The notes under the pieces were generated by a model that did no database searches, was not told the origin of the DNA, and saw only the letters and a list, made by a program, of their open reading frames with translations. The translations under genes were made by a program, and so were the position numbers. This document shows, in pieces, positions 15,294 through 52,445 of a DNA stretch of 64,000 nt. Location: assembly GCA_000145985.1 (NCBI GenBank), contig CP002098.1, positions 124,001-188,000 of the forward strand, written 5' to 3'. The stretch is from Ignisphaera aggregans DSM 17230. Lineage in GTDB: Archaea; Thermoproteota; Thermoprotei_A; Sulfolobales; Ignisphaeraceae. The first letter of the stretch is position 1. Each line of letters begins with the position of its first letter.

Positions 15294-15358
15294 TTATTAG
15301 GCACCAAAACATATACTTCTATAAATGATATTGCTATGTGTAGATAGTGCTTTTCTCT

Positions 15359-15690
15359 AGGGTTCGGGTCTGAACATTACTCTTAATCGCTTTCTTCATC
15401 CCCTCATCCCCGTTCCCCACTCCCTCAGGCTTCATCGTTCACAGCAGGGGCTCTTAGGGGTGACCCAGGCACCCCCGCATACCCTTTCTACTTATCTTTA
15501 TTTTGTTCTCTATATTTCTGCGATACTCCCTTAGGGATCCACCCATTCTATGGGTGGATAAACCCTTCATCGGTTCTAGGAATAAACCTTTGTTTATACA
15601 GAATATAAGCTTTATCTCTCTAAGTATAGAGAAAAGTTGTTAAGAGTATTTGAGAATATTGAGGAGTTATATAGAGGGCAGAATGGCTTT
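15359..15690. repeat. Long dispersed repeat, copy A
   Basis: About 330 bp here match 30781-31083. The first 185 bp are nearly identical (from AGGGTTCGGGTCTGAAC to TTAGGGATCCAC) and the end matches again over TTATATAGAGGGCAGAA. Copy A contains a 9-bp perfect hairpin ATCCACCCA/TGGGTGGAT (15537-15559) and the stem GGGGTG/CACCCC (15457-15475), whose fifth base pair is replaced by a compensatory pair in copy B. On the minus strand it has a GAACGATGAAGCC box. It contains no convincing protein frame. It ends about 140 bp before the L22 gene, where the usual ribosomal operon is broken. Confidence 0.85.
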
Positions 15691-29848: not shown

Positions 29849-29936
29849 GCCGGGGTGCCCGAGTGGTCTAAGGGGCCGGCCTTGAGAGCCGGTGGGGGTA
29901 ATCCCCACGCGGGTTCAAATCCCGCCCCCGGCGCCA
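29849..29936 (+). tRNA. tRNA-Ser (anticodon UGA)
   Basis: The sequence folds as a type II tRNA. The acceptor stem pairs GCCGGGG with CCCCGGC, with G as discriminator base and an encoded CCA end. The anticodon stem CCGGC/GCCGG closes a CTTGAGA loop, giving anticodon UGA. A long variable arm (GGGG with CCCC) and the T arm with GGGTTCAAATCCC follow. No intron is seen. The accessory island begins directly after it. Confidence 0.95.
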
Positions 29937-30002: not shown

Positions 30003-30383
30003 ATGGCTATGGTTCTCGACTCAAGTAGAGGCCGGGAATTCATATCTGAATTCAGAGCTGGTGGTAGTTGGTTTGATAAGGTGATTGTGGGTGCTCTGGG
30101 TGATGATGTTAGGAGGGTTATTCTGGATAGGGTTAGGCAGAAGCTGGGCTTTGTTGAAGCTGCTAAGGCTCTGGGTATCGCTAAGTCTAGTCTGTATCGT
30201 TATTTGAGTGGTGAGTGCAGGGTTCCCAACGACGGTGTTAGGGGTGCTCTGTGCTACCTAAGCAAGGAGGAGTTCGACGGGGTTGTGAGCGGCTGGGATA
30301 AGCTGAAGGCTCTGGGCTTGTTAGGGGGTGGTACTGATAGTGATGTTTGCAACCCTGTACGAGCTCGAGAGGAAGATGATTAG
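30003..30383 (+). pseudogene. N-terminal fragment of an archaeal integrase-like protein
   Basis: This 126-residue frame has a helix-turn-helix segment (VEAAKALGIAKSSLYRYLSG) inside a fragment that resembles the N-terminal part of tyrosine integrases encoded by crenarchaeal proviruses and plasmids, which often use tRNA genes as attachment sites. It starts 66 bp after tRNA-Ser. The catalytic domain is missing and the frame runs out-of-frame into a resolvase remnant near 30340. GC content is about 50 percent, far above its neighbours. The integrase identity rests on position and my memory of the family, not on catalytic residues. Confidence 0.5.
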
Positions 30384-30567
30384 TGAGAGGACACGGGCAG
30401 GAATGCAGAGAGCGAAGCTTCAGGGTAAACACGTTGGGAGGAGGCTCAAGCTCTCGGAGGATCTAAAGCGTGTAAAGGAGCTGCTAAGCCTAGGAGTACC
30501 GAAGAAGCGCATTGCAGAGTTACTAGGCGTAAGCAGAACAGCTCTGTACAGTACCTCAAAAAGCTGA
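30328..30567 (+). pseudogene. C-terminal fragment of a serine resolvase
   Basis: The frame encodes FATLYELERKMISERTRAGM, then GKHVGRRLKLSEDLKRVKEL and a helix-turn-helix with KKRIAELLGVSRTALY. This is the end of the catalytic domain (E helix) plus the DNA-binding domain of a serine recombinase such as the IS607 TnpA or a resolvase. The N-terminal catalytic part with the active Ser is absent; in its place lies the integrase-like fragment in another frame. It is therefore a recombined remnant. Confidence 0.75.
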
Positions 30568-30780
30568 GTGTGAAGTGAACAACACACGTGACCTCCCTAC
30601 CAAGCGGAGCCACAAAGAGTATCAGAACTACTGACCTCGGCCTAAGAAGGTACTAGTTCTGAGAGCTAAAGATGCTTTTCTGCACTAATAGAAAGAACGC
30701 TTTGAGCTCGGAAGCGTATCCACTATGATAAGCGGCCTCTAAGCACTTAGACTGCTGGTAATTCGAACCAGTGTTGAGAA

Positions 30781-31083
30781 AGGGTTCGGGTCTGAACATT
30801 ACTCTTAATCGCTTTCTTCATCCCCTTATGTTTTATTCCCCACTCCCTCAGGCTTCATCGTTCACAGCAGGGGCTCTTAGGGGAGGCCCGTACTCCCCTG
30901 CATACCCTTTCTACTTATCTTTATTTTGTTCTCTATATTTCTGCGATACTCCCTTAGGGATCCACTCAGCTTTGTGCGGATAAACCCCTCATCAGTTCTA
31001 AAATAAATATAAGAATAAATATTTGTTTACACAGAATGAGTATTTAAGAATACCAAGGAGTTATATAGAGGGCAGAAAGGCTT
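30781..31083. repeat. Long dispersed repeat, copy B
   Basis: This is the second copy of the element at 15359. The stem GGGGAG/CTCCCC (30880-30898) replaces GGGGTG/CACCCC of copy A, so the T-A pair became an A-T pair with pairing kept. On the minus strand GCAGGGG can pair with CTCCCC or, alternatively, with CCCCTGC next to the GATGAA box. The 9-bp hairpin of copy A is degenerate here. The gap 30568-31229 otherwise shows a 7-bp inverted repeat AGAACTA/TAGTTCT at about 30625-30665 and no gene. A frame across the repeat lacks a plausible protein sequence. Confidence 0.85.
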
Positions 31084-47312: not shown

Positions 47313-47699
47313 ATGTCTAAACCATTTTATGTAAAGTTCGAGGTGCCCCCAGAAATAGCAGAGAAAGCATATCAGGCTCTTAAGAAAGCTAGAGAATCGG
47401 GAGGAAAAATAAGGAAGGGCACCAATGAGGTTACAAAGGGAGTGGAAAGAGGACTATGTAAAATAGTGTTTATAGCTGAGGATGTAGATCCACCAGAGGT
47501 AGTAGCACATCTACCTCTCTTATGCGAAGAAAAGAAGGTTCCATATCTATACGTGCCAAGTAAAAAGAGATTAGGAGAAGCAGCGGGTATTGAAGTAGCA
47601 GCAGCATCTGCATGTATTGTAGAGCCAGGTGAGGCAAAGGCAGAGGTAGAGGAATTAGCATCAAAATTCCAAGAACTTAGAGCAAAAGCAGCGAAATAG
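47313..47699 (+). CDS. rpl7ae: 50S ribosomal protein L7Ae
   Basis: L7Ae binds kink-turns in rRNA, H/ACA and C/D guide RNAs and RNase P RNA. The 128-residue protein has [20 protein letters not shown] and [20 protein letters not shown], the RNA-binding signature. Guide RNAs that it should bind are predicted at 4563 and 53575 in this window. It is followed by a 249-bp AT-rich gap before the convergent S28e gene. Confidence 0.96.
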
Positions 47700-48573: not shown

Positions 48574-50385
48574 CTAAAGCTGCATTAGAAATGCTGCATA
48601 TTCTGGTTCTTTCAATGACTTTATCTTTATTATTTCTTTTAGAACAGTTAAAGAAGTTTCGTCCAATATGTTCTTGAACTTTGAAACTAATATCTTTACA
48701 TGAGATAGAGGTATATCAGAATAGAGTATATCATCCTCTTTAATATGTCTTCCAACAATAACATTGCCTTTTATTGATATTGCAACTTCTTGTCCCGTCT
48801 TGGCCTCTCTTAATGTTTGACCCATGTATTGAATCTGTTGTATTTCTCCAATACTTCTGCCATCACTTCGCATTAAAGGCATTCCAGGTCTTATAATTCC
48901 TCCTAGAATGCTTACACCTACTATTGCTGGATCACTACGCCTAAAGATGTATCCTGGTAATATTTTTATTTTGGCTGGCGGTACTATAGACTCAAATTCT
49001 CTTCTAAGTTCCATCATTTTTTCGCTTTCTATCCAATTAATATAGTCATCGATAAGCTTATAAATTATGTTATTACTAAATATTTTGATATTTTCTTTCC
49101 GAGCTAATTCTTCAGCATCAGGAAGAGCTTTAACATTGAATAGAAGTATTACTCCGTAATATTTATTATTTTTTGCAACAATAGAAGCCTCAATGACATC
49201 ACGCTTAGTTAGAGGACCAACATCGGCAATTCTTATTGGAATAGATTTTCTGTTGAGAGCTAAAATTATAGCTTCTAAGGTTCCTAAAGTATCAGCTTTA
49301 ACAATAACACCATCTATATCTCTTCTAAAACGAATTGTTTCTACTTCCTCCATAACAAGTCTCTTATACTTTTCTATCTCATTTTCATTTGGTACCACAA
49401 AAAATGGTGAACCTGCTATTGCTTCTTCAATTCCAGGCGCTATTACCCTTACTCCAGCAGCTGCAGCAACTTCCTCAACAATCTGGAGTTCTGTTCTAGC
49501 AATTCTAATGTCTGTTAAGGGCTTAGGCATTAAAATTGCTCTAACCTTAGTAACTATAGGTCCATTAAAGCCTGCTACTACAATGTTATCTCTTTCTCTA
49601 AGAACACCATCATATATAATTACATCTAGAGCAGCTCCATAACCCTGTTGCTCCTTTACCTCAAGTACTACACCTTTAGCCGGACCCTCGGCAAATCTTA
49701 GTCTTTCTGCAAGAAATCTTTGAGTGATACCAGCAAGAATAGCCAATAGTTCTGGTATACCTTCTCCAGTTTTAGCTGATACAGGAACTATAGGTACTAC
49801 CTTCATAAAATCTCTTACACGTTCAAAATATTCTGCATTTACTCCATAGCTAGAGAGCTGAGCAATAAGATTATACAATAGAGTTTCTAACTTATTAACT
49901 ACAGCTCGACTCTGTTTTTTAAGACTACTAATTATTGGTTCATCTGGATAAGGTTTCCAGCCCTGTATCTTATCTATTTTATTAGCTGCTATAACAAATG
50001 GTACATTTCTAGCCTTTAAAACATCGATACTTTCAATGGTTTGAGGCTTTACTCCTTCATTAATATCAATAACTAAGATAGCAATATCTGCAACACTACC
50101 ACCTCTTTTTCTCAGATTAGAGAACAGTTCATGTCCAGGGGTATCTATGAATAAAAGTCCCGGGATCTCAAGTTTGAATGGAATAATTTTTTTAAGGGGC
50201 ATTGCCACTTTCTCTATGACAGAAGAAGGAACCATGCTAGCACCAACATGTTGTGTCATCTCACCAGCTTCCTTCTTTACTACAGCTGTACCCCTGATTT
50301 TGTCTAATAATGTTGTTTTTCCATGATCTACATGTCCGAGAACTACAACTATTGGCTGTCTTAATTTTCTATCAACATGTTTAGA
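48574..50385 (-). CDS. infB: Translation initiation factor IF-2 (aIF5B)
   Basis: aIF5B is a GTPase that joins the ribosomal subunits. The 603-residue protein has the G1 motif GHVDHGKTT, G3 DTPGHE, G4 NKID and G5 SAKTGEG, then the domains II-IV. No intein is present, unlike in some Thermococcales genes. ATG 50385 has GGTG 6 nt upstream; an ATG at 50424 is less likely. It is divergent from S6e. Confidence 0.96.
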   Translation of the reverse strand, partial: SKHVDRKLRQPIVVVLGHVDHGKTTLLDKIRGTAVVKKEAGEMTQHVGASMVPSSVIEKVAMPLKKIIPFKLEIPGLLFIDTPGHELFSNLRKRGGSVADIAILVIDINEGVKPQTIESIDVLKARNVPFVIAANKIDKIQGWKPYPDEPIISSLKKQSRAVVNKLETLLYNLIAQLSSYGVNAEYFERVRDFMKVVPIVPVSAKTGEGIPELLAILAGITQRFLAERLRFAEGPAKGVVLEVKEQQGYGAALDVIIYDGVLRERDNIVVAGFNGPIVTKVRAILMPKPLTDIRIARTELQIVEEVAAAAGVRVIAPGIEEAIAGSPFFVVPNENEIEKYKRLVMEEVETIRFRRDIDGVIVKADTLGTLEAIILALNRKSIPIRIADVGPLTKRDVIEASIVAKNNKYYGVILLFNVKALPDAEELARKENIKIFSNNIIYKLIDDYINWIESEKMMELRREFESIVPPAKIKILPGYIFRRSDPAIVGVSILGGIIRPGMPLMRSDGRSIGEIQQIQYMGQTLREAKTGQEVAISIKGNVIVGRHIKEDDILYSDIPLSHVKILVSKFKNILDETSLTVLKEIIKIKSLKEPEYAAFLMQL

Positions 50386-51218: not shown

Positions 51219-52445
51219 ATGTCATTAATTCCTACAATGAATATAGGCGTTGTTGGACATGTAGATCATGGAAAAACAACATTAGTTCAGGCTTTAACAG
51301 GGCAATGGACTGCTAGACACTCAGAAGAATTAAAAAAGTCTATGACGATAAAGCTTGGTTATGCTAATGGGTATATATCATATTGTAGAGATTTAGAACC
51401 TCCCGAAGCTTATGGAACAAGTACAGTATGTCCTAATGGGGAAAAGGCTGAGATATTAAAAAGTGTATCATATATAGATGCACCAGGTCATGAAATTCTT
51501 ATGGCTACAATGCTTGCAGGTTCTGTATTAATGGATGCAGCACTACTAGTTATTGCGGCCAATGAGCCTTGTCCTCAACCACAGACACAGGAACACTTAG
51601 CAGCTCTTGAAATAATAGGACTTAATCAACTTATTGTAGTTCAGAATAAAGTAGATACTGTTGATAAGGAGCAGGCAAAGAAAAACTATAAGCAGATAGT
51701 TGATTTTATTAGTACAACTCGTTTTTCAAAGGCTCCTATAATTCCTGTAAGTGCTTTACATAAAGTAAATATAGATGTATTGGCATTAGCTATGTATAAA
51801 CTTTTTAAGGAACCTGAAAGAATTCTTGGTAAACCAGGATTGATGTTAATAGCAAGAAGTTTTGACGTTAATCCTCCTGGTACTCCACCAGAAAGACTTG
51901 TTGGCGGTGTAGTAGGTGGAGGAGTTATTAGGGGTGAAATAGATATCGATGATGAAATTGAAATTAAACCCGGTGTAAGAATAGAAGAGAAAGGTGGAAA
52001 GGTCAGATATGAACCCTTAGTAACTAGGGTTGTAAGCATTAAGTATGGTGATATAGCTGTAGATAAAGCACGCCCAGGAGGCTTAGTTGCTATAGGTACA
52101 ACACTTGATCCATCACTTACAAAGGCTGATAGGATGAGGGGGAACGTACTAGGACATAACGTTCCAGATCCTGTTAATAGTCTAGTGATCGAATATAGAT
52201 TATTTGAGAAAATTGCAGGAATTAAGGGTTATGAAAAGATGGAACCAATAAAGTCACGAGAACCTATAATAATAACAATAGGTACTATGGTTGGAATGGG
52301 AATAGTTACAAAAGCTACTTCAGATATGTTAGAGGTTACTATGAGAGAACCTGTAGTAGTATATCAGGATAGAGCAACAGTTGCAATTAGTAGAAACATA
52401 AAAGGACGTTGGAGATTAGCTGGATGGGGATATGTAAAGGCATAA
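51219..52445 (+). CDS. Translation initiation factor aIF2, gamma subunit
   Basis: This GTPase binds Met-tRNAi directly. The 408-residue protein has G1 GHVDHGKTTL, DAPGHE, the NKVD motif and three domains as in EF-Tu. The zinc knuckle region is unusual: the sequence YCRDLEPPEAYGTSTVCPNG keeps only two of the four Cys found in Sulfolobus and Pyrococcus homologues (the CxxC partners are Leu and Gly). The rest of the protein looks normal. Confidence 0.95.
   Translation: MSLIPTMNIGVVGHVDHGKTTLVQALTGQWTARHSEELKKSMTIKLGYANGYISYCRDLEPPEAYGTSTVCPNGEKAEILKSVSYIDAPGHEILMATMLAGSVLMDAALLVIAANEPCPQPQTQEHLAALEIIGLNQLIVVQNKVDTVDKEQAKKNYKQIVDFISTTRFSKAPIIPVSALHKVNIDVLALAMYKLFKEPERILGKPGLMLIARSFDVNPPGTPPERLVGGVVGGGVIRGEIDIDDEIEIKPGVRIEEKGGKVRYEPLVTRVVSIKYGDIAVDKARPGGLVAIGTTLDPSLTKADRMRGNVLGHNVPDPVNSLVIEYRLFEKIAGIKGYEKMEPIKSREPIIITIGTMVGMGIVTKATSDMLEVTMREPVVVYQDRATVAISRNIKGRWRLAGWGYVKA

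Follow-up and report, generated by a model that had tools for sequence, protein, structure and literature searches.

Protein-free TnpB elements of Ignisphaera aggregans as candidate stand-alone omegaRNA units, and a predicted kink-turn at the tnpB start codon

The TnpB nucleases of IS200/IS605 transposons use a reRNA, or omegaRNA, whose ~150 nt span the tnpB 3' end and the adjoining right end, and for which the flank serves as guide (PMC8612924); this RNA is processed out of the tnpB mRNA (PMC10278001). The palindrome-associated transposable elements (PATEs) of Haloquadratum walsbyi arise from IS605 elements by deletion of the core (PMC3119063). Archaeal l7ae leaders carry a kink-turn (k-turn) with a GAU bulge, and L7Ae bound there masks the ribosome site; a k-turn directly behind a start codon has also been assayed with L7Ae (PMC6298567, PMC5539422). 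Here we describe two short elements, copies 1 and 2, in a window of 64,000 nucleotides (positions 124001-188000) of the single-contig Ignisphaera aggregans genome (1,875,953 bp); strain AQ1.S1 of this species comes from Rotorua, New Zealand (PMC3035270). Judged by their sequence, these and related protein-free copies are internally deleted derivatives of TnpB transposons.

The elements are no new kind, and clearly exemplify TnpB guide elements that lack a protein gene. They have conserved helices in common with the omegaRNAs of IS200/IS605 TnpB (PMC8612924, PMC10278001); unlike those, the scaffold here is also found in protein-free elements of 299-346 bp, several per genome, with a promoter-like sequence of their own. 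PATEs are likewise core-deleted, transposase-free IS605 derivatives with neither terminal repeats nor target duplication, whereas they are haloarchaeal and their description predates knowledge of omegaRNA function; in its available part, a retained promoter, a start hairpin and a covarying guide scaffold are not among the features described (PMC3119063). Searching the literature for TnpB guide elements devoid of protein turned up no direct precedent other than PATEs.

Protein-free copies and their tnpB-bearing relatives

A whole-genome search for further copies, proposed in an initial annotation of this DNA, found eight good copies in I. aggregans, three with tnpB and five protein-free. The three form the 3' end of a gene of 400-409 amino acids, identified as tnpB by its Cas12f1-like_TNB domain (PF07282); by eye, the three acidic RuvC positions and the CxxC motifs are apparently intact in two of them, and one copy carries a stop. 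The other five have a left end, ~18 codons from the start of tnpB, ~35 from its close and, after these, the same right end GTTCAGACCCGAACCC; they are too short to code, and lack terminal inverted repeats and target duplication. The initial annotation had noted two near-identical copies without clear terminal inverted repeats, and both observations stand: copies 1 and 2 are 94-98% identical over the first ~185 bp, with a short indel, and much more divergent beyond (81% identity overall), their exact ends falling a few bases within the limits first drawn. Its suggestion of a non-autonomous TnpB-type element is borne out by clear homology to the tnpB ends, the RNA strand being the minus strand. 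It had also held that membership of a larger protein-coding transposon would speak against a structured RNA. The hairpin does lie inside the 3' end of tnpB in three copies whose tnpB is intact or nearly so, and there the stem region encodes VPGSPPRAP; this is harmless, since overlap with that end of the gene is what one expects of an omegaRNA.

Copies 1 and 2 have each preserved both element ends, the right one precise, along with a TATA-like promoter, the start-codon hairpin and the omegaRNA scaffold. The scaffold overlaps the tnpB 3' end, runs on the same strand to the right end, stops at an invariant point followed by flank, and has a covarying fold. We therefore regard each copy as a likely stand-alone omegaRNA unit, derived from an IS200/IS605-like TnpB element that has lost the tnpB coding core.

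The borders are sharp. AG precedes the left end in every copy, and the right end always stops at one point, with a GAACCC border in nearly all copies followed by unrelated flanks; on a reading of the sequence, the right end bears a short GTTC/GAAC palindrome and the left has no clear terminal one. When the flanks of one copy from the Ignisphaera group (L067) are joined, they match a sister genome across the junction at 88%; the joined flanks of another (L072) match two other genomes in the same way, so that both have empty sites. Each empty site holds one C beyond the joined flanks, which fits a target of AG-C and no target duplication.

The covariance model and search of relatives that the initial annotation also proposed matched the scaffold in 38 of 211 genomes of the order; tnpB of this group was found in 39 of 214 (threshold E 1e-40). 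Two Ignisphaera-group genomes hold two protein-free copies each (L067, L068, L069 and L072), and Zestosphaera tikiterensis (NBVN) has at least 12 of the same layout, seven that were picked up immediately and at least five others. One genome, G044, has 13 scaffolds and zero tnpB matches at E 1e-40, its PF07282 matches being mostly short. We found no support for a single origin of all protein-free copies: a right-end tree places the Zestosphaera copies with Zestosphaera tnpB, and the junctions vary by lineage. The copies may have arisen by several deletions, or by one plus recombination.

Covariation and constraint in the omegaRNA scaffold

The scaffold folds into three helices (H1-H3), which are 96% paired over 34 scaffolds, with a sharp fall on a shift of one base. 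H1 is the stem singled out by the initial annotation, which reported an exact pairing-keeping swap between the two window copies, GGGGTG/CACCCC against GGGGAG/CTCCCC. The swap is real, and is one double change amid several differences clustered in the H1 hairpin. As a sign of selection it is not significant on the four well-kept I. aggregans copies alone, where 239 of 1000 shuffles score as high; selection on the RNA structure is instead supported by the 34 scaffolds, with 32 double-changed cells against 11.2 in shuffles (0 of 500 as high). These shuffles, like the E-values, count related sequences as independent and so overstate significance, whereas the direction is consistent across genera. 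Across the 34 sequences the swapped pair is U-A in 12, U-G in 10, A-U in 8, C-G in 1 and G-U in 1. The protein-free copies alone show 11 double changes against 3.5 in shuffles (0/1000). The omegaRNA scaffold is thus under constraint at the level of base pairs.

Two mutually exclusive pairings for the same GGGG had also been proposed, next to a GATGAA box. The box is present (15394-15403); further instances lie in the scaffold loop and where the tnpB start codon used to be. The alternative pairings are feasible on paper, and covariation favours two separate helices, H1 and H2; we rejected a riboswitch-like switch, which has no covariation support. The first observation is confirmed, and its interpretation supported in part.

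How might such a unit work? Transcription would start from the kept promoter, and a minus-strand RNA would run through the scaffold into the flank, which would become the guide; that the copies yield a stand-alone RNA is plausible. TnpB from tnpB-bearing copies (in I. aggregans those at 574336 and 797199-798398) could bind this RNA in trans and cut the empty donor site, so that the element would be copied back in and kept. It would once have been moved by a transposase acting in trans.

The strongest competitor, which we regard as possible and somewhat doubtful, is that the copies are inert passengers: relics resembling PATEs or miniature inverted-repeat transposable elements, moved by a transposase in trans and making no guide RNA, their scaffold conserved through recency or nearness to the end that the transposase reads. 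The PATE precedent of IS605 core deletion fits this (PMC3119063), as does the presence of a Y1 TnpA transposase in three genomes (G001, G002 and G092). G044, where Y1 TnpA was not found, holds two near-identical copies of a second miniature family at different sites (L211 and L212) with one common deletion that takes out promoter, start hairpin and H1, which indicates that transposition alone can spread such elements. The same copies imply that promoter, hairpin and H1 are dispensable for moving, so their retention elsewhere points to another use. Among protein-free copies, moreover, p-distance is 0.087-0.092 in the scaffold core, 0.107-0.129 in the start hairpin and 0.056-0.123 in the terminal part of the right end, against 0.206-0.345 in the linker and 0.25-0.30 in the left end. 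Linker and left end have therefore diverged 2-4 times faster than the core in the same copies, and the constrained core sits 80-130 nt from the end; these distances, together with the paired double changes within protein-free copies, argue against passive carriage.

A k-turn at the tnpB start codon

In the parent genes the tnpB start codon lies inside a k-turn composed of a canonical stem (C-stem), usually a GAU bulge, GA...GA, a non-canonical stem (NC-stem) and a further capping hairpin. Both tandem GAs are present in 35 of 36 tnpB genes and a strict k-turn rule is passed by 32 (89%), against 2.5% of shuffled sequences, 25% of synonymous recodings that kept peptide and leader, and 1 of 107 open reading frame (ORF) starts in the window. 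The hairpin covaries strongly, and its inner stem is paired in 248 of 252 cells (mean 173 and maximum 189 over 1000 shuffles). Among 19 further, distant tnpB genes, a stricter rule is met by 8, against 0.3% of shuffled sequences, and several have 7-bp leader stems.

This hairpin could instead be a DNA structure at the left end, read by the transposase, as subterminal palindromes lie near both ends of IS200/IS605 elements (PMC8612924). We consider that unlikely: in tnpB-bearing copies ~270-300 bp, including a divergent small ORF, separate the hairpin from the left end; the hairpin falls on the start codon and comes with tandem GA and a leader stem that reaches 7 bp; and the G044 protein-free copies spread despite losing it. 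We think it quite improbable, too, that the pattern is a by-product of conserved N-terminal residues (M-K/R-G ... P-E/R-G). PEG/PRG is indeed conserved, and recoding retains the strict pattern at the rate given above, well short of the observed one; but non-coding leader bases pair and covary with third codon positions (the outer pair is C-G in 21 and U-A in 8), the arginine of the PRG subgroup is CGA in the motif in 10 of 10 cases against 3% elsewhere in the same genes, and inner-stem pairs swap across non-conserved residues. Chance duplication of an unrelated host small RNA such as a box C/D RNA, suggested by the GATGA boxes and the stand-alone, non-coding character of the copies, is dismissed by their clear homology to tnpB ends and by the absence of any Rfam covariance-model match at gathering threshold or E 1, including the haloarchaeal sotRNAs RF02656 and RF02657, and is extremely improbable.

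By analogy with l7ae leaders, we predict that tnpB is probably under translational control by L7Ae, host L7Ae blocking translation through the start-codon k-turn. Like those k-turns, the one here has a Watson-Crick 3b:3n pair, for which folding is predicted only on L7Ae binding; it differs in lying over the start codon of a transposon nuclease, in its long extra hairpin and in that L7Ae binding is a prediction (PMC5539422, PMC6298567). The RAGATH-18 reRNAs of IS607 TnpB are also structured guide RNAs for which a possible k-turn is mentioned, in the guide RNA of another family and not at the tnpB start codon (PMC11061315). The start-codon k-turn of the parent genes is apparently new to description, and k-turn control of TnpB was not previously described in the literature searched. 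The window contains an L7Ae-family gene (~47364-47639); no k-turn was evident by eye in the I. aggregans l7ae leader.

Taken together, we tentatively propose that a family of TnpB nucleases in thermophilic archaea is controlled by L7Ae at a start-codon k-turn, and that its protein-free descendants act as independent guide-RNA genes, which keep their sites with TnpB borrowed in trans, a combination that we would not yet call probable. If true, selfish elements can keep their guide RNA only and parasitise another copy's nuclease for retention; guide-only elements would be a step towards separate guide arrays with a shared effector; and the k-turn would make the expression of an RNA-guided nuclease depend on a core RNA-binding protein of the host.

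Several observations weigh against, or limit, the reading as stand-alone omegaRNA units from a parent with a start-codon k-turn. The k-turn is decayed in protein-free copies (GA/GA in 10 of 16, a full C-stem in 3 of 16), which implies that it serves translation of tnpB and not these copies; start-hairpin covariation within the protein-free copies alone is uninformative, with 103 paired cells against 101.4 in shuffles. A Saccharolobus-like genome (G205) has distant TnpBs without the k-turn. Random stem changes in further copies had been named as grounds for doubt about the RNA structure, and one copy (97306) is decayed; pairing is kept in the other copies. The copies are young, and any recombination with tnpB copies could imitate constraint. 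The I. aggregans genome has no Y1 TnpA, though controls matched, so copies there may no longer move; the search for an IS607 serine recombinase TnpA gave only one resolvase fragment in the whole genome (window 30328-30432).

Window copies and their surroundings

Table 1. Coordinates, within the window, of copies 1 and 2 and their parts
Feature	Position	Strand	Basis
Copy 1, complete non-autonomous TnpB element, 327 bp	15360..15686	minus	alignment of 8 genomic copies, sharp GTTCAGACCCGAACCC end
Copy 1, left end	15686	minus	
Copy 1, right end	15360	minus	
Copy 2, complete non-autonomous TnpB element, 299 bp	30782..31080	minus	alignment of genomic copies
Copy 1, omegaRNA scaffold/right end (139360-139488 in the genome), homologous to tnpB 3' end and right end	15360..15488	minus	covariance-model match and alignment
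Copy 2, omegaRNA scaffold/right end (154782-154911 in the genome)	30782..30911	minus	covariance-model match
Helix H1, copy 1, GGGGUG/CACCCC	15457..15475	minus	
Helix H1, copy 2, GGGGAG/CUCCCC (compensatory swap)	30880..30898	minus	
Helix H2 (15444-15451 with 15415-15422) and GATGAAGCC loop	15415..15451	minus	covariation
Helix H3, GGGGATGAAG (15394-15403) with CAGACCC (15366-15372)	15366..15403	minus	covariation
Copy 1, remnant of tnpB codons 1-18, tandem GA partly lost	15537..15573	minus	
Copy 1, start-codon hairpin	15537..15559	minus	
Copy 1, GATGA box	within 15563..15573	minus	
Copy 2, start-codon hairpin remnant	30960..30995	minus	
TATA-like box AGCTTATATTC, ~35-40 nt ahead of old start codon, tnpB promoter position	15601..15611	minus	sequence reading
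AG dinucleotide adjoining left end, candidate target or transposon-associated motif, present at every copy	15687..15688	minus	
Copy 1, predicted guide flank (TAGAGAAAAGCACTATCTAC...)	15330..15359	minus	position relative to right end and reRNA rule (PMC8612924)
Copy 2, predicted guide flank (TTTCTCAACACTGG...)	30752..30781	minus	position relative to right end

Differences between copies 1 and 2 fall in patches (15457-15475 against 30880-30898, and 15403-15415 against 30825-30838), and one patch of copy 2 looks like the tnpB-bearing copies; this patchiness suggests recombination between elements. Within a cluster of ribosomal genes, copy 1 lies upstream of the gene for ribosomal protein L22 (15829-16308), and its RNA strand is the opposite one to that of L22. 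Copy 2 is just downstream of a decayed serine recombinase (30003-30580), itself after a tRNA at 29849-29933; this region is probably the remnant of an integrated element.

In copies with tnpB, a divergent ORF of 47 amino acids (MTTIYVFKAKVVKTSGKYLIYPPKEYQEKL..., seen upstream of tnpB in L047) separates the left end from the promoter; it has no Pfam match and is deleted from protein-free copies. The tnpB copy at 955 kb splits a major-facilitator transporter gene (L046:3080-4660), one half lying on either side; read by eye, these halves make a continuous frame across TATAG, and each side has later stops. We rejected the disrupted aldo/keto reductase beside the 797 kb copy as an exact empty site, since the flanks come from different genes. 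Elsewhere in the window, a 36-bp inverted repeat (50308-50343 and 51249-51284) between two divergent translation GTPase genes is probably just the homologous GTP-binding codons of the two genes.
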